Shown one piece after another: positions 12,011-22,646 of a stretch of 64,000 nt of DNA. The notes below the pieces were generated by a model. That model did no database searches. It was not told where the DNA came from and saw only the letters and a list, made by a program, of their open reading frames with translations. Numbering within the stretch: position 1 is the stretch's first letter; every line of letters starts with the position of its first letter. This stretch comes from Candidatus Sulfotelmatobacter sp. (GTDB lineage: Bacteria; Acidobacteriota; Terriglobia; Terriglobales; Acidobacteriaceae), in contig JASHNU010000019.1 in the NCBI GenBank assembly GCA_030041475.1, positions 124,001-188,000 on the forward strand. Reading direction: 5' to 3'. A program made the position numbers and the translations under genes.

Positions 12011-13009
12011 ATGAAACTTTCTGCCATCGTTTCCGCCCTCAACCTGCGCCTTGAAAATGGCTCTCCCGACACGGAAATCACCGGCCTCAACGGGATTGAA
12101 CAGGCTGGCCCGGGAGAGCTGACCTTCGTCTCCAATCCCAAGTACGCGGCGGCCGCGCGGACCACGAAGGCCTCGGCCGTCATTGTGGACGAGGACTTCC
12201 CTGCCGTTCCCGCCGCCGCGATGCTGCGGGCGAAGGACCCCTATCTCAGTTTCGCGCGGGCGTTGGAATTGTTTCACCAGCCTGTGCGCTATGCGCCGGG
12301 TGTGCATCCCACGGCGGTTGTGCATGCGAGCGCGCGGATCGGGGCAAAGTCGCACATTGGACCGTACGTTGTGATTGGCGAAGACGTCGAGATCGGCGCG
12401 AATGCCGTGCTACTGGCCCACGTCGTCATTTATCGCGGAGCGAAGATCGGCGAGAACTTCTTCGCCCATGCGCACTCTGTCGTGCGGGAAAACTGCCGCA
12501 TCGGCCGGAACGTGATTCTGCAGAATGGAGTGGTGATTGGAGCGGACGGGTTCGGCTTCGCCAAGACGGACGACGGACGGTGGCACAAGATTCCTCAACC
12601 TGCGCCGGTCGTGATCGGCGACGATGTGGAGGTACAGGCGAATTCGTGCATCGACCGGGCGAGCGTGGGTGAAACGAGAATCGGACGCGGCGTGAAGGTC
12701 GACAACCTGGTACAGGTAGGCCACGGATCGCAGGTGGGCGAAGATACGCTCTTGTGCGCTCAGGTGGGGCTGGCGGGATCAACCGAGATCGGCAACAAAG
12801 TCATTCTTACCGGTCAGGTAGGCGTGGTGGGGCACTGCAAAGTTGGAGACAACGCGATCGTTACTCCGCAGAGCGGTGTGGCGAATGACATTGCGGCGGG
12901 CACCCTGGTCAGCGGATCGCCGGCGGTCGATCACAAACTGTGGTTGAAGTATTCCGCCATTCTTCCTAAGTTGCCGGACATTGCACGGGCACTGCGGAAA
13001 AAGGATTAA
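12011..13009 (+). CDS. lpxD: LpxD UDP-3-O-acylglucosamine N-acyltransferase
   Basis: A 332-residue protein: an N-terminal uridine-binding domain ([17 protein letters not shown], then [13 protein letters not shown]) followed by a left-handed beta-helix of hexapeptide repeats from about residue 100 ([19 protein letters not shown]). The catalytic His is in [13 protein letters not shown]. LpxD adds the N-linked hydroxyacyl chain in the third step of lipid A synthesis in the cytoplasm. It stands apart from other lpx genes here. The stop is followed directly by a self-complementary element shared with the convergent PlsC gene. Presence of LpxD with a PagL-type gene at 35412 supports an outer membrane containing lipid A. 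Confidence 0.95.
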
Positions 13010-13074
13010 CCACAGAGGTCACAGAGGATCCAGAGGAACTTAGGCTTCTCTGTGAAGCTCTGTGGCTTCTGTGG
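13010..13074. repeat. Palindromic CCACAGAGG element, probable bidirectional terminator
   Basis: Left arm 13010-13026 and right arm 13058-13074 match at 15 of 17 positions as an inverted repeat, with further pairing inside (CAGAGGAA against TTCTCTG). It lies between convergent lpxD and plsC. The last codons of plsC run into the element, so its sequence encodes the C-terminal residues ATELHREA. It may end transcription in both directions, though no strong T-run follows. Confidence 0.6.
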
Positions 13075-13789
13075 TCGAGTTTGGCTGCCGATATTCTTCC
13101 GGCAAGCTGCTCTCGATTGTCGTTCGCACTTTTTCCATCAGGCACTCGCGGCTGCCGAAATCCTTGGGATCGATGGCAGGGTGAAAGATTACCTTCACCA
13201 GTCCTGGCTTTATGGCGAAGCGTTTCTTTGGCATGGCGTAGTGCGTGCCGACGATCGTCATGGGAACCACGGGAACGCCGCACTCCATGGCCAGGTAAAA
13301 AGGCCCTTTTTTGAAAGGCAGAAGCTTACCGTCGAAGGAACGCTTGCCCTCCACGTAGATCGTCATGTTGATTCCCTGCTGGATGACCGCCTTGGCCGCC
13401 TCAACCGCTTCGATGCCGGCATCGCGATTGCCGCGATCAACTGGAACGAGCGATGCCATCCGCATGGCTGGCCCCAGGATGGGCGTCTTGAATAATTCCT
13501 TCTTGACCAGGACGGAAGTGCGGCGCGGAATCAGCGGAATCTGAATGGGCGGGTCGAGATTCGAGGCGTGATTCGACATGAAGATGTACGTCCGCGCGGG
13601 ATCGAGTTTGTCGAGACCCACGATTTCCACGCTAACGCCGGTCAGGCGGACACCGGCGAACGCACCCCAGTTGAATATGCGATAGAGCAAACGAATATCG
13701 CCGGTGAGGAAGGTCCAGGAGAAGCCGACCAAGGCGGCCAACGGCATGGCCAGACCCCAGAAGGTCAACATGATGGCGGTTCTGATCAT
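13040..13789 (-). CDS. plsC: 1-acyl-sn-glycerol-3-phosphate acyltransferase family (PlsC-like)
   Basis: A 249-residue membrane-associated acyltransferase with an N-terminal hydrophobic helix (residues 1-30). Motif I is NHASNLDP (His and Asp catalytic pair), motif III is EGKRS in IYVEGKRSFDG, and motif IV is in GVPVVPMTIVG. The family acylates lysophosphatidate at the inner membrane to give phosphatidate. Its ATG overlaps the stop of the M61 peptidase gene (13786-13789), so both belong to one minus-strand run. The final 10 residues are encoded by a palindromic repeat and are probably not functional. Another acyl acceptor is possible because the family is broad. Confidence 0.9.
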   Translation of the reverse strand: MIRTAIMLTFWGLAMPLAALVGFSWTFLTGDIRLLYRIFNWGAFAGVRLTGVSVEIVGLDKLDPARTYIFMSNHASNLDPPIQIPLIPRRTSVLVKKELFKTPILGPAMRMASLVPVDRGNRDAGIEAVEAAKAVIQQGINMTIYVEGKRSFDGKLLPFKKGPFYLAMECGVPVVPMTIVGTHYAMPKKRFAIKPGLVKVIFHPAIDPKDFGSRECLMEKVRTTIESSLPEEYRQPNSTTEATELHREA

Positions 13790-15726
13790 TTTTCTAGGAA
13801 CTCTGGTTTCTGAGACTCTGGCTTCTGAGATCCTGGTTTCTGAAAATCTGGTTTCTGAGAACCTGACATTCGAGACCCCGGTTGCACGTCGGTTCCGGCT
13901 TCACCGGCTGCACTTGCGGTAGGTTGGTCTTCTCCCTTGATCCACGCAGCGCGCCGGGCGAGTTGAGTGTCGGTCACCTGATCGAGATTGCCTACCTCGT
14001 AAGAAATCTCTTGGCGGCTGGCGACCTTCCATTTCAGTTCTCGCTCATTTCCGCGGCGGCCACGGACTCTCAACCTTAGCGTGTCGCCCGGATTCAGTCG
14101 CGCCAACTCCTGCCGCGCATCCTGTCCGGAGGCGTTACCTTGCAGTTCCACAATCGCGTCTCCAACCTGTAATCCCGCGCGCTCCGCGTCGCTGCCCGGA
14201 GTGACGGCCGACACTGACATGGGCCCGTCAAAGTTGCGCGAAGCAAGAAATCCGGCATCCGCAACAGAGACGGTGATTGCCTGGGCCCGAAGGCCGACCG
14301 AGCGCAGAAAATCGTTCCACGGGATTTCCTCCGTACCAGTGACATATTTCGCAAAGAACCAGCCGAGATCGGAGTGACTGACAGCCTCGGCGGCCTCGCG
14401 GACTCCTTCGCTATCCTTGAAGAACTTCGCTTTCTTCGCATAGTTCACATTCATCCACTCGAACACATCGCGCAGCGAAGCCTGCCCGTGGCTGGCGTCG
14501 CGGATGGCAAGGTCGAGCATGATGCCGAGTAGTTCGCCCTTGTTGTAATAGGAAATACTGCGCTCGGGGCGACGGTAATAGGCGTCACCCTCGAGCCAGG
14601 CATCGAGGCTCGATTCTTCGGCCGATTGCGTCAAATGGGCGGGGCGCCGTTCCAACTCCGCCATCAACTCGCTCACCCGCTGGAGGTACTGCTTTTCGTC
14701 CAGCAATCCAGCGCGCAACTGAAGGATGCCTTCGACTGTGCTGGTCACGCCTTCGCTGAACCATAGCGCCCGCGTGTAATTTTCCTTCGTGTAATCGATT
14801 GGTTCGAGTGTCTGCGGGCGAATTCGCTTGACGTTCCAGAGATGGAAAAATTCATGGGCGCTGATTCCGGCGAGCGTTTCCGGGCTCGATTTCATGGATT
14901 CCGCGTTGATGTCGATCGCGGTCGAGAAAGAGTGTTCCATTCCACCGCCGCCGGGACCGTGGGGAAAGTGGTAGATAAAAGTGTAGGTATCGAAAGGACG
15001 ATCGTTCATCCATGAAGTCGCCGCGGCCACGATCTTGTGCAGCTGGCTAACGATGCTTTCCATGTTGTACTCGGCGACATCGGCGTCGACAATCACACGG
15101 AAATGCCCGCCGTCCTCTTCGAAGTCAGACTCGCGAAAGCTGCTGATTTCGACCGGTGAATCCACGAGCCGGTCGTAATCCTCCGCCTCAAATTGATCAT
15201 CCGCGCCGAGCGAAAGTGGCGTGGCAATGCGCCAAGTGTCCGGTACCTGATTGAATCGCACCCGCATAGGTGCGTGGCGCAAATCTGCCGGATACATCAG
15301 AACTTGCGCGAGATTGAGGAAGGCATGGTGCGCGTTGAATTGCGCACCAAACGGTCCGGGAGAATCGACGTAGATCTGATACTCGACGACGGCGCCCCCT
15401 GCAGCGTCTTCAATCTGCCAGCAGCTTTTCGAAAGCACGCGGACGGCGAGTTCCCCGCCGGAACGGTCTTTCGCGCGTACCCAGTTCACATACTGGGCGA
15501 AATCCCGAACCTGGTAAAGCGCATTCCACACGGGAAGCTGCAGTTCGCGCTGTGCCGCGCCTGCAGGAAGGATGATCTGCACTTCGACCAGATGCTGAGC
15601 GGGCGACACAAGTGTGATCGTGTAAGAGACCCCGGGTAACGACTGCGCAAACGCAAGCGGCGTGACCAGAATTGCCGCAACCAGCGCAAGTCGTGCCACG
15701 CGTCGGATCGGAGGAAATAGGCTCAT
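13786..15726 (-). CDS. M61 family metallopeptidase with PDZ domain
   Basis: A 646-residue secreted protein with a signal peptide (residues 1-27, ending LAFAQ). The N-terminal half is the M61 beta domain; the catalytic part has HEFFHLWNVKRIRP (zinc ligands His291 and His295) and FSEGVTS with Glu325 as third ligand, and GGMEHSFST. A PDZ domain spans about 515-590 (AGLQVGDAIVELQG). The family includes glycyl aminopeptidases. The last 30 residues consist of five-residue units of the form SQKPx, encoded by a 15-base tandem repeat at 13802-13876. The ATG overlaps the mpl stop by 4 bases. Confidence 0.92.
   Translation of the reverse strand: MSLFPPIRRVARLALVAAILVTPLAFAQSLPGVSYTITLVSPAQHLVEVQIILPAGAAQRELQLPVWNALYQVRDFAQYVNWVRAKDRSGGELAVRVLSKSCWQIEDAAGGAVVEYQIYVDSPGPFGAQFNAHHAFLNLAQVLMYPADLRHAPMRVRFNQVPDTWRIATPLSLGADDQFEAEDYDRLVDSPVEISSFRESDFEEDGGHFRVIVDADVAEYNMESIVSQLHKIVAAATSWMNDRPFDTYTFIYHFPHGPGGGGMEHSFSTAIDINAESMKSSPETLAGISAHEFFHLWNVKRIRPQTLEPIDYTKENYTRALWFSEGVTSTVEGILQLRAGLLDEKQYLQRVSELMAELERRPAHLTQSAEESSLDAWLEGDAYYRRPERSISYYNKGELLGIMLDLAIRDASHGQASLRDVFEWMNVNYAKKAKFFKDSEGVREAAEAVSHSDLGWFFAKYVTGTEEIPWNDFLRSVGLRAQAITVSVADAGFLASRNFDGPMSVSAVTPGSDAERAGLQVGDAIVELQGNASGQDARQELARLNPGDTLRLRVRGRRGNERELKWKVASRQEISYEVGNLDQVTDTQLARRAAWIKGEDQPTASAAGEAGTDVQPGSRMSGSQKPDFQKPGSQKPESQKPEFLEK
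13802..13876. repeat. 15-base tandem repeat, five units, in the 3' end of the M61 gene
   Basis: Five consecutive 15-base units (13802, 13817, 13832, 13847, 13862) share the pattern TCTGGTTTCTGAGAC with few changes; the last unit is the most diverged. They encode units like SQKPG and SQKPE at the C-terminus of the M61 peptidase. Copy number is likely to vary between strains. Confidence 0.85.
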
Positions 15727-17162
15727 TTGCTACGTGCCAGCTGCTGGAGGCGCGCAGGCAGTTTTTCATAAATGCCGCCAAACCCGCCATTGGAAAGAAT
15801 AGCGACCACATCTCCGCTCCGCATTTCCGGAGCGACCGTTTGTACGATGGCGTCTGCGTCGGCGAGCAGGCGGGCTTGTTTTCCGTGGCGCCCGATTTCC
15901 GCGGCCAACTCCAGCAATTGCATGCGTTCGTTCTCCGGAACCGCCTCCGAGCGGAACACGTTGGCCACAACGATTTCATCTGCCAGGGCCAGGCTGCGCG
16001 CCAGATCGCTTTGCAGCACGCGCCGGCGTAGGGTGTTGGAGCGGGGCTCCAGAATCGCCCACAAGCGCGCGCCGGGGTAGCGGGCGCGCAGAGCCTTCAC
16101 CGTACCGGCGATCGCCGTAGGGTGGTGTGCGAAATCGTCAATGACCGTGATTCCGTTCACTTGCGCCCTGACCTCGAGTCGCCGCTTCACGCTCTTGAAG
16201 GTCTTCAAGGCAGAGGCAATAACGTCTTTCGGAATTCCGCATCCGGCAGCCAGCGCCGCCGCGGCGGTTGCGTTCCAGACGTTGTATTCGCCGGCCAGCG
16301 CAAATTCGAAATCGGCCCAGGACTGGCCATCACGCAGAACGGTCCAGCGCGTGTGTCCAGGATCGAGGCCTAAGTCGCTGACTCGCCAATTTGCGTGCAA
16401 GCCGGCGCCGTAACGTTCGACGGGACAGAAGGCCTTGGCTAGAGAACGTTGCAGGCTTGGGCTCTCTGTTGCCTCGCCGGCCTCGCCGTCAAAAGCCACG
16501 ATGCGCCCACGGCGAGGAATCACGTTGACTAGGCGTTTGAAGGCCGTCTCCACGGCGTCGAGATCTTTGTAGATGTCAGCGTGATCGAACTCGACCGACG
16601 TCAGGATCACCGCGTCCGGAAAGTAGTGCAGGAACTTCGGACCTTTATCGAAAAACGCTGTATCGTATTCGTCGCCTTCGAGGACGAAGTGTTTTCCCGA
16701 CCCCAAATGAAAGCTGGATCCGAAATTCTCGGCGATGCCGCCGATCAGAAACGAGGAGTCAAGGCCGGCGGAGTGAAAGATCCAGGCGAGCATCGAAGTG
16801 GTCGTCGTTTTGCCGTGAGTGCCGGCTACGACCAAAACTTCTTTTCCGCGCAGAAATTCGTCGTGCAGCAACTGCGGAAGGGAGCAGAAGGGGATGCGCT
16901 GATCGAGGACATGCTCAAGCTCCACATTGCCCCGCGAGATCGCGTTGCCAACCACGACCAGATCAGGCCGCGGTTCGAGATTCCTCGCATCGAACGGCTG
17001 CGACAGGGGAATGGTCAGTTCGCGCAGGAAATCCGACATCGGCGGGTAGGCGGCGGCGTCGGAACCGGTCACGCGAAAGCCGCGCTGGTTGAGCATTCCA
17101 GCGAGCGAGGCCATGGCCGTGCCACAGATTCCGATCAGGTGAATATGTTTGGCTGCGTTCAT
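15723..17162 (-). CDS. mpl: Mpl, UDP-MurNAc:tripeptide ligase
   Basis: A 479-residue Mur-ligase. The N-terminus HIHLIGICGTAMASLAGML binds the UDP-MurNAc part, the ATP P-loop is GTHGKTTTTSM (residues 114-124), and EGDEYDTAFFDKGPKF (162-177) is the signature that separates Mpl from MurC. Mpl attaches the recycled tripeptide L-Ala-D-Glu-meso-Dap to UDP-MurNAc in the cytoplasm. It sits in one minus-strand run with an LD-carboxypeptidase upstream, whose product is the tripeptide Mpl uses, so the pair forms a peptidoglycan recycling unit. Overlap of 4 bases with the M61 gene downstream. Confidence 0.93.
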   Translation of the reverse strand: MNAAKHIHLIGICGTAMASLAGMLNQRGFRVTGSDAAAYPPMSDFLRELTIPLSQPFDARNLEPRPDLVVVGNAISRGNVELEHVLDQRIPFCSLPQLLHDEFLRGKEVLVVAGTHGKTTTTSMLAWIFHSAGLDSSFLIGGIAENFGSSFHLGSGKHFVLEGDEYDTAFFDKGPKFLHYFPDAVILTSVEFDHADIYKDLDAVETAFKRLVNVIPRRGRIVAFDGEAGEATESPSLQRSLAKAFCPVERYGAGLHANWRVSDLGLDPGHTRWTVLRDGQSWADFEFALAGEYNVWNATAAAALAAGCGIPKDVIASALKTFKSVKRRLEVRAQVNGITVIDDFAHHPTAIAGTVKALRARYPGARLWAILEPRSNTLRRRVLQSDLARSLALADEIVVANVFRSEAVPENERMQLLELAAEIGRHGKQARLLADADAIVQTVAPEMRSGDVVAILSNGGFGGIYEKLPARLQQLARSK

Positions 17163-17212: not shown

Positions 17213-18151
17213 TCAGGGCATGACCGCCGACTCGAGAATTCTCAGTCCCACCTGTCCGTCGCGCACCGTGAGCCTCGCCTGCACTCCGAATGGCAGGGTG
17301 ATGTTCTCAGCGGTTACGTGGCCGGAGCGAACGCCGAAGGCGACAGGAACTCCCAGATCACCCACAATACGTGTCACCACTTCCTGCAAAGTGTAGCCCT
17401 GACCCGGTGCCTGCACGCAGTCGAGCATCTCGCCGAAGACGATGCCGCGCACTCGCGCGAATTTGCCAGCCAACTTCAACTGCATAAGCATGCGGTCGAT
17501 CTGATAGGGTTTGGCGGCGAGGTCTTCGATAAAAAGAATCGTGCCATCGGTCTGGATTTCGTACGGCGTGCCGAGCGACGCCACCAGAATCGAGAGGCAG
17601 CCACCATAAAGTATGCCCTCGGCCTCCCCGTCCACCAGCCCATTAACGCCGGCGCCAGTGGGAACGTCCCAGGGTTCGGAGCCAGACAGGGCCGATCGCC
17701 AGGACGCGAGATGCACGCCATCGTTATGCGCCCAATCCTTGGCCGCCATGGGGCCGTGAAACGTAACGAAACCCCCAGGGGTGGAGAAATACACCAGCAA
17801 CGATGTCATGTCGCTGTACCCGACAAGAATCTTCGGGTGCGACACGACGGGCTTCTCCGGCAGCAGGTGATTCACCCCATAACCGCCGCGCGCGCAAATG
17901 ACAGCGCGCACTTCGTCTCGCGCGAACATTTCCTGCAACTCGCTAACCCGGCGCTTCACCGATCCGGCAAAATACAGATCTTTCTCTAAGATGGAGTCGA
18001 AATAAAACGGCTTGTATCCCGCCCGGCGCAAGGCTTCGCAGCCCGCCTCGAGATCGGCCTGCTTGATGTTGCTGGCCGGCGCGACGATGCCGACCGTGTC
18101 TCCAGGACGGAGTGCGGGCGGCTTGCGGCGTTGAAAATTCGAGGATGGCAT
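17213..18151 (-). CDS. ldcA: LD-carboxypeptidase (S66, muramoyltetrapeptide carboxypeptidase)
   Basis: A 312-residue cytoplasmic enzyme without a signal peptide. The S66 triad is visible: Ser113 in VGYSDMTSLL, Glu209 in LFIEDLAAKPYQIDRM and His278 in GVRSGHVTAENITLPFG. ICARGGYG is also typical. It removes the terminal D-Ala from recycled tetrapeptides to give tripeptides. It lies 50 bases upstream of mpl on the same strand, fitting a recycling pair. The family also contains microcin-self-immunity proteins, but the neighbours favour recycling. Confidence 0.92.
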   Translation of the reverse strand: MPSSNFQRRKPPALRPGDTVGIVAPASNIKQADLEAGCEALRRAGYKPFYFDSILEKDLYFAGSVKRRVSELQEMFARDEVRAVICARGGYGVNHLLPEKPVVSHPKILVGYSDMTSLLVYFSTPGGFVTFHGPMAAKDWAHNDGVHLASWRSALSGSEPWDVPTGAGVNGLVDGEAEGILYGGCLSILVASLGTPYEIQTDGTILFIEDLAAKPYQIDRMLMQLKLAGKFARVRGIVFGEMLDCVQAPGQGYTLQEVVTRIVGDLGVPVAFGVRSGHVTAENITLPFGVQARLTVRDGQVGLRILESAVMP

Positions 18152-18221: not shown

Positions 18222-19019
18222 CTAGCTCAGCAAGAATTCGCCCCGGCATACTAACCGCGCCGAACCGCGAAGAAAAAGATTGTTCCCCTCCTGGCGCACT
18301 GTTTGTGTTCCGCCGGGTGCATGCACTCGAACCGGCGATTCAGCTCTGCCGGAGATCATGGCTGCCGCTGCCGACGCGCAGGAACCGGTCCCCGAAGAGC
18401 GCGTCTCCCCCACGCCGCGCTCAAAGAACACGACGTTCACGTCGTGGCGACCGTGAGAAGAAACCAGTTCGATATTCACTCCATTGGGAAACTGCGGAGC
18501 ACGCTGGACCGCAGCGGCGCGGGCCTGCCAGTTCGCGGCAAACGCCGGCACAAAGACAACGAAATGCGGATTGCCCATGGAGACCGGGATGCCGCGTACC
18601 TCCTTACCATCCACTTGCAGCGCAAGTTCCTTCTCAACGACAGCCGCGCCCATCTCCATTTCAAACTCGTACTCCGAGTCTTTCCGTCCCCTGAGTGAGC
18701 AAATCTTGATGCCGGCTCCGGTCAGAATCGACATGCGCTCTTTCTCGCGCGTCGCGCAAAGGTAGGCCGCAACGCAGCGCGTGCCATTGCCTGAGATCTC
18801 CGCCGGTGAACCGTCCGCATTGATCAGCCGGATCTCAACGTCAGCAGAAAAATGGGGCAGGATCCACTCAACACCATCCGCGCCCACGCCTTCGTGACGG
18901 TCGCAGATACGCCGCGTGAAGGCGGCGACGTCCTCGGGAGCGAGGGCGCCGTCGATCAGCAGAAAATCGTTGCCGCAGGCGCTGGCTTTCACAAAAGCGA
19001 TGGTGCGGCTGGCACTCAC
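18222..19019 (-). CDS. Diaminopimelate-epimerase-like protein with Ser in place of both catalytic Cys
   Basis: A 265-residue DapF-fold protein. Conserved features are KASACGNDFLL, INADGSPAEI, GNGTRC, MGNPHFV and GVGETRSSGTGSC. In known DapF the two catalytic cysteines lie in xCGNGxR and xxCGxGA. Here those positions are Ser76 (AEISGNGTRC) and Ser209 (TRSSGTGSC); the codons are TCA and TCG, read clearly on both strands. A two-thiol epimerase mechanism is therefore not possible as drawn. The gene sits beside LD-carboxypeptidase and mpl, so a role in amino-acid or peptide stereochemistry of the envelope is possible. It may be an active variant, an enzyme for another substrate or an inactive paralogue. 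The start at 19019 has no competitor. Confidence 0.85.
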   Translation of the reverse strand: MSASRTIAFVKASACGNDFLLIDGALAPEDVAAFTRRICDRHEGVGADGVEWILPHFSADVEIRLINADGSPAEISGNGTRCVAAYLCATREKERMSILTGAGIKICSLRGRKDSEYEFEMEMGAAVVEKELALQVDGKEVRGIPVSMGNPHFVVFVPAFAANWQARAAAVQRAPQFPNGVNIELVSSHGRHDVNVVFFERGVGETRSSGTGSCASAAAAMISGRAESPVRVHAPGGTQTVRQEGNNLFLRGSARLVCRGEFLLS

Positions 19020-19133: not shown

Positions 19134-20789
19134 TTACCGGATGCGATAAAGAACCGCGCGCGATTGGCCGGTCACGTGAATTTCGACCAGCGCGCGCAGA
19201 TGACGATTCTGCACAGCTTGCCAGACCGGGTCACCTTCGAAAGCAACCACGTAGCCCGCGTACGCCGCAGGATTGGACAGCGCACGCTCCCAAAGGCCCT
19301 CGGCATCTTCCGGTTGCTTCCAGACGCGGTGGTTGCCCTCGTTGATCGTGCGCCGCAACGGAACGCCTGCCTGCTCGAGGGCGCCCACATGATCGCCAAG
19401 ATACATGAGAATAGTCGAATCTGGCGGAAGTTTGCTGAGCCAGCCTGCTAGTTGCGCTTCGAGTTGATTCCGGCTGCGCATGTTGATCTGCGCCTCGGCG
19501 AGGGTGATGGGCGTCGCTCGCCAGATGGAAGCGTAGCCCACCGTGACGAGGGCAACGGTTCCCGCGATGGCCGCCCAGCGAACCGTCCTGAGCCAGCCAC
19601 CGGATGGCCAGGGCAGCTTGATGCCGAGATACATCACCACCGCGAAAGCCAGGGCGAATGCCGGCAGCAGCTGCAATCCATAGCGGACGTTGTAATGAGT
19701 GAACGGCCACCAAGCGGGCACGAAAATTGGAACGCCACCGTAGCCGATTGAGAAGGCGTAAAAAGCAATAGGCGCAAGGAGCAAGGCAAATACATGAACT
19801 TTGCGAAGGACTAACATCCCGAGGCATCCTGCTACGAACCAGATCACAAGGACGTGCTCCAAGAGTTCACCGTCAGCCATGGTTTCTTGTGCGGCTTTGA
19901 AAAAATACAGCGATGAAACGCCCAGGCTGCCCGACCCCGGATGCCCGCTGTGCCTGGGATTCTCCGTCCTCATTTCAATCGCCTTGGCCGAGTACGGACC
20001 ATTTTCAAATTCCAGCGGATTGCGGTAGATGATTGCGTTGTAAGCGAGCCAGAGCGCGGGGGCGGTCGCGGCGATCAGGACAAATGTGATCGCCACTCTC
20101 CGAGAAAGTCGGAATCCCGGACTCTGGTTCTGTAACGGTGGGCGGAGCGCGAGAACGATCACAACCAGTGACAACCCGGCAGCGAGAAACCAGCCATCGT
20201 ATCGCGTCAGGCACGCCGCCGCGAGGCAAGCTGCACACTTGTTCAGAGCTCTCGTGCTGCCGCGCAGCCACTCGCTGAAGTAGACAACAGTCCAGATAAA
20301 GAGCGCCAGGTAGATCGCCTCACCCATTGCCGTGGTCTGCATGTAAATCAAATTCGGATTGGCCGCATAGATTAGAGCGGCGGCCCAGGCCGCAATGCGA
20401 GCCCCCGCGTCTGGTTGACTGTTCTGCGAGAGCACGCCGCGCGCGAGCCGGAAGATCCCGATCACGCCGCACACGTACGCGGTCAGAGAAGGAATCGAGC
20501 CGCCCACACCCCGCTGCCACATTTCGTTGGAAATCAGGAATGGGATCATCAACAGGTGAGGTAGCGGCAGCCAGACCGTTCCCAACTGGAGCAGACCCGG
20601 GGTTCTCGAATCGAAGACGCGGCGCGCGATGTTGATGTGAGCCACCGCGTCGCCATACAACGCCGTGTCGCCATTGCGAAAGTAAAACAAGTAGGAGAAA
20701 ACCGCGATACACGTCGCCAGCCACGCCAGCAGCCGGACTTCGGAATCCCAATGTGAGCCGGCAGGCGGATTCTTGGTTGAGTTGGCCAT
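19134..20789 (-). CDS. Polytopic membrane protein, GT-C glycosyltransferase-like
   Basis: About 551 residues with 10-12 predicted membrane helices. The start is placed at ATG 20789 (MANSTKNPPAGSHW) because the longer frame to 20873 would overlap the pfkB-family gene. After the first helix comes GDAVAHINIARRVFDS, in the place where GT-C enzymes keep a catalytic acidic residue in their first periplasmic loop, and VWLPLPHLLMIPF follows. The C-terminal 110 residues form a soluble domain (LPPDSTILMYLGDHVGALEQ). GT-C enzymes move sugars or other groups from polyprenyl carriers on the outer face of the membrane. Substrate unknown; the family call rests on topology and the acidic loop. Confidence 0.75.
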   Translation of the reverse strand: MANSTKNPPAGSHWDSEVRLLAWLATCIAVFSYLFYFRNGDTALYGDAVAHINIARRVFDSRTPGLLQLGTVWLPLPHLLMIPFLISNEMWQRGVGGSIPSLTAYVCGVIGIFRLARGVLSQNSQPDAGARIAAWAAALIYAANPNLIYMQTTAMGEAIYLALFIWTVVYFSEWLRGSTRALNKCAACLAAACLTRYDGWFLAAGLSLVVIVLALRPPLQNQSPGFRLSRRVAITFVLIAATAPALWLAYNAIIYRNPLEFENGPYSAKAIEMRTENPRHSGHPGSGSLGVSSLYFFKAAQETMADGELLEHVLVIWFVAGCLGMLVLRKVHVFALLLAPIAFYAFSIGYGGVPIFVPAWWPFTHYNVRYGLQLLPAFALAFAVVMYLGIKLPWPSGGWLRTVRWAAIAGTVALVTVGYASIWRATPITLAEAQINMRSRNQLEAQLAGWLSKLPPDSTILMYLGDHVGALEQAGVPLRRTINEGNHRVWKQPEDAEGLWERALSNPAAYAGYVVAFEGDPVWQAVQNRHLRALVEIHVTGQSRAVLYRIR

Positions 20790-20826
20790 GGCCCCCACGG
20801 AAAGGAAAAAGACGGACGGACCGGGA

Positions 20827-21750
20827 TTATTCGAGATGCGATAGCTCACGAAAGATCTGAAAGCGGGCGTCAATTTCCTCCCGGGTCAGCGACTGCAGCC
20901 GCTCGGTCCCGAAACGCTCGACGGCGAATGATCCCATCACGCCTCCGTAAAACAGAGCGCGTTTCAGCACTTCGCGGTTCACCTCTTCCTGCGAAGCCAA
21001 GTATCCCATGAATCCGCCGGCAAACGAGTCGCCCGCGCCGGTCGGGTCTTTGACCTCGTCAATCGGCAGCGCCGGCGCACGAAACGGATGACGGCCGATG
21101 CCGAACGCACCTTCGCGAAAGAAAATGGTCGCGCCGTATTCACCGTGCTTGATGACCAGCGCCTTCGGGCCCATGGCCAGCACTTTCTGCGCAGCGCGCG
21201 GCAGATTGGTCTGGCCGGCCAGCATTTTGGCCTCGGTGTCGTTGATGAGCAGCAGGTCTACCAGCTTCAACGTTTCGGCCAGTTCCCTGGGCGTGCCTTT
21301 GATCCAGTAATTCATCGTGTCGCAACCGGTCAGGCGAACGCCGTTCATTTTGCGCCGCACATTCGCCTGCAGCGTGGGCTGAATGTTGGCGAGGAACAGA
21401 AACTCTGTGTCTTCGTACTCCTGCGGAATCCGCGGCTGGAAGGTCTCGAAGACATTGAGGTCGGTGTAGTTGGTCTTGGCCTCGTTGAGATTGTCGAAAT
21501 ACGAACCGCCCCAGCGAAACGTCTTCCCCTTGGCGCGCTCGATGCCACGTGTGTCGATTCCATGCTTGTGGAACACCGCTTCTTGCTCGGGGCCAAAGTC
21601 TTCGCCTACGATGGCGACAACGCGAACTTTCGTGAAGTAGCTGGCAGCGAGCGAGAAGTAAGTGGCGGCTCCGCCCAGAATATTTTTCACGCTGCCGGAG
21701 GGCGACGTGATGTCATCGTATGCGACCGAACCGACTACCAGAATGCTCAC
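20827..21750 (-). CDS. PfkB family carbohydrate/nucleoside kinase
   Basis: A 307-residue ribokinase-like kinase. The N-terminus has the family glycine motif (NILGGAATYFSLAASYF), and the C-terminal signature is DPTGAGDSFAGGFMG with Asp241 as the catalytic base. It lies 32 bases downstream of MTA phosphorylase on the same strand, so the two are probably cotranscribed. The substrate cannot be read from sequence; adenosine, ribose or a methylthioribose-related compound would fit the neighbour, but this is inference. A TAGGAG ribosome binding site lies upstream. Confidence 0.88.
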   Translation of the reverse strand: MSILVVGSVAYDDITSPSGSVKNILGGAATYFSLAASYFTKVRVVAIVGEDFGPEQEAVFHKHGIDTRGIERAKGKTFRWGGSYFDNLNEAKTNYTDLNVFETFQPRIPQEYEDTEFLFLANIQPTLQANVRRKMNGVRLTGCDTMNYWIKGTPRELAETLKLVDLLLINDTEAKMLAGQTNLPRAAQKVLAMGPKALVIKHGEYGATIFFREGAFGIGRHPFRAPALPIDEVKDPTGAGDSFAGGFMGYLASQEEVNREVLKRALFYGGVMGSFAVERFGTERLQSLTREEIDARFQIFRELSHLE

Positions 21751-21782: not shown

Positions 21783-22646
21783 CTACCTCACGTACTTGCC
21801 GATGATCAGCTTCAGTTTCTTTTTGGTTGCTGCCGAAATTTTCTTGGGGTCCGTCAGGATCGCGTGGGCCAGCGCCGATGCGCATTTGCAGGAACGTGTG
21901 GGCGGAATAGCGGCGACAGTGGCGCGGACAACTTTTGTCGCGTTCTCGGCATTCTTCAGCAGAACAGTCACAACCTGATCGACGGTGACCGAAGCGTGAT
22001 GCGGATGCCAGCAATCGTAATCGGTGACCATGGCGACAGTGACGTAGCAAAGCTCTGCCTCCCGCGCCAGCTTGGCTTCCTGCAGGTTGGTCATGCCGAT
22101 GACGTCCATGCCCAAGCTCCGGTAAACGTTCGACTCTGCCCTGGTAGAAAACTGCGGGCCCTCCATGCAGAGGTAGGTTCCCCCGCGCTTCCCGACGACA
22201 CCGATCTGCCGGCACGCACTTTCGACCACGCCTGACAATTCTCCGCACACCGGTTCGGCAAAGGCGATATGCGCGACGATCCCCCCGCCGAAAAACGTGT
22301 CGACGCGATGACGGGTGCGGTCGAAGAACTGATCGGGAATCACGAAGTCGAGAGGCTTGTGTTCTTCCTTGAGCGAGCCCACGGCGGAAATGGAAATGAT
22401 GCGCTCGACACCGAGCTGCTTGAATCCGTGAATGTTGGCGCGGAAATTCAGCTCGCTGGGCAGAATGCGATGGCCCCGCCCGTGGCGCGCCAGAAACGCC
22501 ACCTTACGTCCTTCCAGCATGCCGCAAACGTAAGCGTCGGAGGGCGCGCCGAACGGCGTCTTCAGCCGGACCTCTTTCACCTTTCCGAGGCCGGGCATGG
22601 AATAGAGCCCGCTGCCGCCAATGATCCCGATTTCCGCCTGTACCAA
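21783..22646 (-). CDS. mtnP: S-methyl-5'-thioadenosine phosphorylase
   Basis: A 287-residue purine nucleoside phosphorylase-family protein. The N-terminus [16 protein letters not shown], the [19 protein letters not shown] segment and [19 protein letters not shown] are characteristic of MTA phosphorylases, with [17 protein letters not shown] following. It cleaves methylthioadenosine, a by-product of polyamine and other SAM-dependent reactions, to adenine and methylthioribose-1-phosphate in the cytoplasm. The C-terminus carries a Lys-rich extension ([16 protein letters not shown]). The GVERI and GMDVIGMTN segments fit MtnP rather than general PNP. Confidence 0.93.

Follow-up and report, generated by a model that had tools for sequence, protein, structure and literature searches.

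The window, by which we mean the whole 64,000-nucleotide stretch of DNA analyzed here, encodes on its minus strand, at 18222..19019, a DapF-family protein (265 amino acids plus the stop codon, GTG start) in which serine replaces both catalytic cysteines of diaminopimelate (DAP) epimerase. The open reading frame is that of the minus strand; on the opposite strand, stop codons interrupt frame 1 of this interval. The protein matches the DapF model TIGR00652 over its full length with 194.1 bits (cut-off 114.65) and PF01678 in two stretches with 149.1 bits (cut-off 34.7). Alignment to DapF puts Ser76 (codon TCA, 18792..18794, minus strand; motif EISGNGTRC) and Ser209 (codon TCG, 18393..18395, minus strand; motif TRSSGTGSC) at the alignment positions of the catalytic cysteine pair, Cys73 and Cys217 of Haemophilus influenzae DapF. 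The Ser pair reported by the sequence-only reading is confirmed by the codons, by this alignment, and by the relatives described below. By the curated NCBIfam and Pfam cut-offs, the protein belongs to DapF; by the catalytic Cys pair, it does not. Because this pair was tested for and is absent, we did not file the protein as DapF, and in the strict sense it is not one. The PROSITE signature PDOC01029, in the form quoted in the available part of PMC8225329, includes the catalytic Cys; the window protein fails it and matches once Ser is permitted at the Cys position, and of the 230 rows tested with this pattern, the Cys form fits 60 and the Ser form 147. Membership in related families was not supported: the score against the bifunctional DapF/glutamate racemase model NF038284 is 79.6 bits (cut-off 350), and in the Pfam search (E 0.001) the protein matches PF01678 only, with no match to the proline racemase family PF05544.

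The gene lies in a block of minus-strand genes. Upstream are the genes for S-methyl-5'-thioadenosine phosphorylase (MTAP; 21783..22646, assigned by family search), a PfkB-family kinase (20827..21750, Pfam), and, directly adjoining dapF, a 579-amino acid protein with no family match (19134..20873). Downstream follow an LdcA-like LD-carboxypeptidase of family S66 (17213..18151; both Pfam domains over the cut-off, best NCBIfam match below it), the UDP-MurNAc:L-Ala-gamma-D-Glu-meso-DAP ligase Mpl (15723..17162; 453.3 bits, cut-off 388.7), an M61 peptidase (13786..15726, Pfam) whose position is conserved in the genus, and a 1-acylglycerol-3-phosphate acyltransferase-like protein (13040..13789; over the Pfam cut-off and just below that of TIGR00530). 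The plus-strand gene for LpxD (12011..13009, family searches) marks the convergent end of the block. The genus and the loci titled Acidobacteriaceae and Korobacter share the order MTAP, PfkB, 579-amino acid protein, dapF, ldcA, mpl, and acyltransferase, with M61 intervening before the acyltransferase in the genus and a few other loci. The sequence-only reading had placed the gene in a peptidoglycan-recycling cluster, and dapF indeed lies upstream of ldcA and mpl in an order conserved in the genus. Most loci titled Bryobacterales keep PfkB and the upstream protein and lack ldcA and mpl, both of which are present at locus L061; locus L188 has none of the tested neighbors. Among 20 further Ser/Ser loci from the wider phylum, neither the tested dap genes nor homologs of ldcA or mpl were found beside dapF.

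The genome containing the window, 99.56% complete at 4.63 Mb in 112 contigs, was searched in full with the PF01678 profile; this returned two domain matches, both within the open reading frame at 18222..19019, and no second DapF. The sequence-only reading had considered that the finding would be more striking if this were the only DapF of the genome, which is the case for PF01678 proteins. Across this genome and 60 relatives, TIGR00652 matches exactly once in 55 of the 61 genomes and not at all in six; a second match was detected in two of 75 genomes encoding a Ser/Ser protein (G209 and G298).

The Ser pair is widespread. Of 55 proteins extracted from the same genome and related ones, 54 have the Ser pair; the last is a fragment in which the first site is missing and the second is Ser. 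Phylum-wide, TIGR00652 finds a match in 239 of 247 evenly drawn genomes. From across the phylum, we examined 100 proteins (the 30 top-scoring ones, another 30 from genomes beyond the listed matches, and 40 picked for further families and genera), comprising 62 Ser/Ser, 33 Cys/Cys, and 4 Cys/Ser proteins and 1 fragment; this set was unevenly chosen, and the Ser/Ser share is no estimate for the whole phylum. In named public genomes, the best 80 of at least 576 confirmed relatives include 37 Ser/Ser, 42 Cys/Cys, and 1 Cys/Ser protein. Thirty-four of these 37 Ser/Ser proteins carry acidobacterial titles (Aminicenantes, which we take to be acidobacterial, included), two are titled "Bacterium HR08" and "HR10", and one comes from a metagenome-assembled genome titled Arcobacter (L184). 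None of the 42 Cys/Cys matches among these best 80 has an acidobacterial title, and the single Cys/Ser match is titled Nitriliruptorales. The Arcobacter-titled sequence groups with an acidobacterial row, and its PfkB and upstream-protein neighbors are those of Bryobacterales loci, so it is probably misbinned. All five Cys/Ser rows (four from the phylum sample and one from the named genomes) have Ser at the second site. Sequencing error as the cause of the Ser pair was ruled out by the agreement of independent genomes. The sequence-only reading had named a family-wide feature that was already described as a case against it. The feature is indeed family-wide, and no description of a natural Ser/Ser DapF was found in the literature searched, most subscription journals being outside its reach; the available parts of the GapMind papers (PMC7311316 and PMC5764234) hold nothing on DapF in Acidobacteria, and the available part of PMC6254735 does not report the catalytic Cys.

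Selection appears to act on serine itself. Only Ser or Cys occurs at either catalytic site in all three protein sets (55 relatives, 100 from the phylum, and 80 from named genomes), with no Ala, Thr, or Gly. For conservation counts, 6 of 236 rows were dropped as fragments, and one outlying Ser/Ser row (L110, genome G061) was placed with the Cys/Ser set; S76 and S209 are each 100% conserved in the resulting 150 Ser/Ser rows, which were chosen as Ser/Ser. The two serine codon families, TCN and AGY, differ by more than one base. Among 116 rows, the codons at the first and second sites are TCN/TCN in 97, AGY/TCN in 6, TCN/AGY in 7, and AGY/AGY in 6; the remaining serines of these genes are 30% AGY. 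Mapped on the tree, TCN and AGY interchanged at least seven times at the first site and at least three times at the second. Given these codon-class switches at both sites, Ser itself was therefore selected and repeatedly regained. The gene is under purifying selection: among 32 sequences of the genus, 61 of the 496 pairs had a usable dS (below 1.5), and for these dN/dS (NG86) has a median of 0.146 and does not exceed 0.22.

A quick phylogenetic tree was built from 106 rows with both catalytic residues masked. Sixty-four Ser/Ser rows fall on one side of a branch with an SH-aLRT value of 92 (the program stars branches at 95), and this group is placed near Cys/Cys rows of other phyla. The outlier L110 is located in a second acidobacterial group, together with 23 Cys/Cys and 4 Cys/Ser rows, and has the extra Glu in the motif ERGVE that is common to most of this group. 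The sequence-only reading had proposed testing whether the Ser/Ser homologs form a clade; one is recovered for 64 rows and not for L110. The placement of L110 suggests a second origin of the Ser pair, and does no more than suggest it because one clade for all 65 Ser/Ser rows is not rejected by the approximately unbiased (AU) test (p = 0.304).

The substrate pocket looks like that of a DAP enzyme. In Anabaena DapF, the DAP contacts besides the two Cys include Asn13, Asn66, Gly76, Asn77, Asn164, Asn197, Glu215, Arg216, Gly225, and Thr226 (PMC12039745, available part). All ten are present in the window protein and, as mapped by alignment, are conserved at 86 to 100% in the 150 Ser/Ser rows: N17, N67, G77, N78, N182, E200, and R201 at 100%, N150 and G210 at 99%, and T211 at 86%, with Ser in the other 14%. 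This change of Thr211 to Ser is the only common one among the contacts, and Escherichia coli DapF likewise has Ser at this position. In 31 acidobacterial Cys/Cys rows (for example, L105, L108, L109, L120, and L124-L126), the Asn164 contact is replaced by Val in 87%, and the substrate of this type may not be DAP; because of this replacement, it is the Ser/Ser proteins that, by their pocket, look like DAP enzymes. Most rows of the acidobacterial Cys/Cys type also have the extra Glu in ERGVE.

A structure model of the window protein (pLDDT 96.6) has its closest solved match in the closed, inhibitor-bound DapF 9mro (Z-score = 36.3; rmsd 1.4 Å over 252 of 265 residues), and this superposition extends the DapF fold across the full length of the protein. 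The structures of the C73S and C217S mutants (2q9h and 2q9j) are farther from the model (Z-scores of 30.9 and 30.4). In the model, Ser76 and Ser209 are predicted to lie at or beside the N-terminal ends of helices H77-91 and H210-222. Two further positions separate the types. At position 85, 92% of the 150 Ser/Ser rows have Ala, whereas 98% of 43 Cys/Cys rows have Lys or Arg; at position 208, 85% of the Ser/Ser rows have Ser and the Cys/Cys rows have Ala, these comparison rows consisting of 42 non-acidobacterial loci and E. coli. Residue 85 belongs to the helix that comes after the first catalytic residue. A cysteine five residues after Ser76 was considered as a compensating residue and rejected as a replacement, most Cys/Cys proteins having the same Cys.

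Compared with known systems, the protein shares full-length homology, fold, DAP contacts, and, by gene content, its place in the pathway with DapF (TIGR00652; Anabaena 9mro, Arabidopsis 3ejx, and H. influenzae 1gqz) and differs in having a Ser pair instead of the catalytic Cys pair and at positions 85 and 208. The engineered H. influenzae variants C73S (2q9h) and C217S (2q9j) carry the same substitution at one site each, but these are laboratory mutants of a Cys enzyme, whereas the natural proteins have both changes. In trans-3-hydroxyproline dehydratases, one catalytic Cys is naturally changed; these enzymes act on other substrates and differ at one site, in contrast to two in the Ser/Ser proteins. 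Other DapF-fold, cofactor-independent racemases are PddB (Dab racemase), the histidine racemases CntK and HisR, and the O-ureidoserine racemase 7vdy, and HisR, CntK, and 7vdy are among the fold matches of the model. CntK and O-ureidoserine racemase work with two Cys. The same applies to PddB (PMC8225329) and HisR (PMC11602996), according to the available parts of these papers. PddB has a changed pocket and retains the Cys pair, whereas the Ser/Ser proteins retain the pocket and have lost the Cys pair. An aspartate/glutamate racemase with a Cys/Thr pair, described in the available part of a review (PMC8142540), is a natural change at one catalytic Cys, with another substrate.

The genome that contains the window encodes an asd-lysC-dapB-dapA-dapD cluster, in which every member passes the curated threshold of one or more models (DapD that of NF008808 and not that of TIGR00965), as well as LysA. 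Its MurE contains the DNPR motif, which is typical of DAP-adding MurE and is present in all 19 fetched MurE proteins that score over the cut-off. The best DapL match in this genome, with 280 bits, is below the cut-off of 593. DAP dehydrogenase makes meso-DAP without an epimerase; such a bypass was looked for in searches that found the enzyme in none of 21 genomes and in none of a set of 79 (75 Ser/Ser and 4 Cys/Ser) and that recovered it in both positive controls, the Corynebacterium glutamicum and Bacteroides genomes. Of the 75 Ser/Ser genomes, 56 have a LysA match over the cut-off and 19 do not; the 4 Cys/Ser genomes all lack such a match. The single proline-racemase-family protein of the window's genome (L298, G000:C105:42252-43166) has 4-hydroxyproline epimerase as its best match (416.5 bits, cut-off 450), and the family is matched in 13 of 21 genomes and unmatched in 8; on both counts, we rejected it as a stand-in epimerase. 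The genes adjoining L298 show weak matches to FAD amino-acid oxidases. Many genomes of family f31 (for example, G120, G251, G266, and G298) match DapF only weakly, and the match is often split in two; some of them additionally have a strong match, which in G298 is Ser/Ser. This family may offer a natural experiment for comparing DAP use with MurE type.

One genome, G146, which matches Chloracidobacterium validum, encodes a Ser/Ser DapF (L081, L299, and L319 belong to this genome); its LysA match scores 405.7 bits and is 45% identical to LysA of the window's genome. According to PMC12816986 and PMC4376005 (available parts), the genus Chloracidobacterium requires lysine, and its describers found no genes for lysine. 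In G146, the Ser/Ser DapF does not give lysine prototrophy, although it may still have a role in the wall or in recycling. On lysine prototrophy of these bacteria, the literature searched yielded only this auxotrophy, and it yielded nothing on the wall chemistry of these Acidobacteria.

The conserved DAP contacts, purifying selection, the presence of genes leading toward LL-DAP and of genes that use meso-DAP, and the lack of DAP dehydrogenase in the genomes searched together fit an epimerase with different catalytic groups. We therefore lean toward the view that the Ser/Ser protein is a thiol-free putative DAP epimerase that provides the cell's route from LL- to meso-DAP by means of two serine hydroxyls. 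LL-DAP and meso-DAP would be bound in the normal DapF pocket and interconverted, a proton being taken from and returned to the alpha carbon by the hydroxyls of Ser76 and Ser209 rather than by a thiolate/thiol pair, and the meso-DAP product would feed LysA (lysine), MurE (cell wall), and Mpl (recycling). We infer that the protein epimerizes DAP and that Ser76 and Ser209 form its acid/base pair, in which case a serine hydroxyl, with its high pKa, would somehow be made basic enough. The wider proposition, that many Acidobacteriota have as their only DAP epimerase an enzyme with a two-Ser acid/base pair and that the two-Cys mechanism, regarded as defining for this class of enzymes, is accordingly replaceable, seems to us evenly poised.

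Several observations count against an epimerase. Single Cys-to-Ser mutants of related racemases are nearly dead: those of PddB retain less than 0.1% activity, with Mycobacterium tuberculosis DapF cited as similar (PMC8225329), turnover of HisR is greatly reduced (PMC11602996), and the substitution was used deliberately to hinder DapF catalysis (PMC12039745), all according to the available parts of these papers. The presence of a Ser/Ser protein in a lysine-auxotrophic genus likewise counts against this reading, and so, in our accounting, do the 19 of 75 Ser/Ser genomes without LysA over the cut-off, the second TIGR00652 match in G209 and G298, the subthreshold DapL match, and the lack of any tested dap gene beside dapF in 20 loci. 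No assay of a natural Ser/Ser DapF was found in the literature searched. As a speculation, a slower enzyme might suffice in these bacteria, which would reconcile an epimerase with the mutant data.

The near inactivity of the Cys-to-Ser mutants (PMC12039745, PMC11602996, and PMC8225329, available parts) would also be expected of a DAP-binding pseudoenzyme, that is, a protein that binds DAP without turnover and senses or regulates, with meso-DAP coming from an unrecognized enzyme. Retention of the Ser/Ser dapF in the lysine-auxotrophic Chloracidobacterium points the same way. In E. coli, DapF forms a known complex with RppH, and RppH-DapF complexes are among the solved structures that match the model. 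Nevertheless, a pseudoenzyme offers no evident reason for the maintenance of Ser at both sites in 150 of 150 rows through codon switches, together with the DAP contacts; moreover, neither another PF01678 protein in the genome nor a DAP dehydrogenase was found to supply meso-DAP, and the sole proline-racemase-family protein is 4-hydroxyproline-epimerase-like, from a family unmatched in 8 of 21 genomes. We accordingly regard this explanation as unlikely, albeit one to be taken seriously.

Changed chemistry on DAP or a close analog, for example, one-way inversion, exchange of the alpha hydrogen only, or elimination, appears improbable. There are precedents in the 3-hydroxyproline dehydratases, which have the same fold, and in two cases from the available part of a review (PMC8142540): an aspartate/glutamate racemase that has Thr in place of one Cys acts in a single direction, and glutamate racemases with a Cys-to-Ser change catalyze elimination. 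However, the DAP contacts are unchanged in the Ser/Ser proteins, as opposed to PddB, in which the equivalents of Asn64, Asn157, Asn190, and Arg209 are changed (PMC8225329, available part), and a pathway that requires an epimerase would be left without one, within the families searched. The remaining explanation, that another, unrecognized enzyme makes meso-DAP and the Ser/Ser protein serves peptidoglycan recycling only, draws on the dapF-ldcA-mpl order kept in the genus and in loci titled Acidobacteriaceae and Korobacter, but is very improbable given that the Ser/Ser gene persists in most other relatives and in 20 loci without adjoining ldcA or mpl (L061 being the exception) and that the families searched (PF01678, DAP dehydrogenase, and proline racemase) contain no candidate second epimerase. 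The sequence-only reading had proposed an enzyme of changed chemistry or an inactive partner; the retained contacts, purifying selection, genes toward LL-DAP and for meso-DAP use, and lack of DAP dehydrogenase in the genomes searched leave that proposal less well supported than a thiol-free epimerase, with the alternatives keeping the lower probabilities given above.

DapF is a textbook two-thiol enzyme and an antibiotic target, and exchanging Cys for Ser is the customary means of inactivating enzymes of this type. In these bacteria, proteins that lack the catalytic residues receive the automatic annotation "diaminopimelate epimerase", and thiol-directed inhibitors would not be expected to act on the Ser/Ser proteins. 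If many Acidobacteriota rely on a Ser/Ser DapF, either hydroxyls can do the chemistry or an enzyme that makes meso-DAP awaits discovery, and either would be new. The Ser/Ser proteins thus provide a natural exception on which the accepted two-Cys mechanism can be tested.
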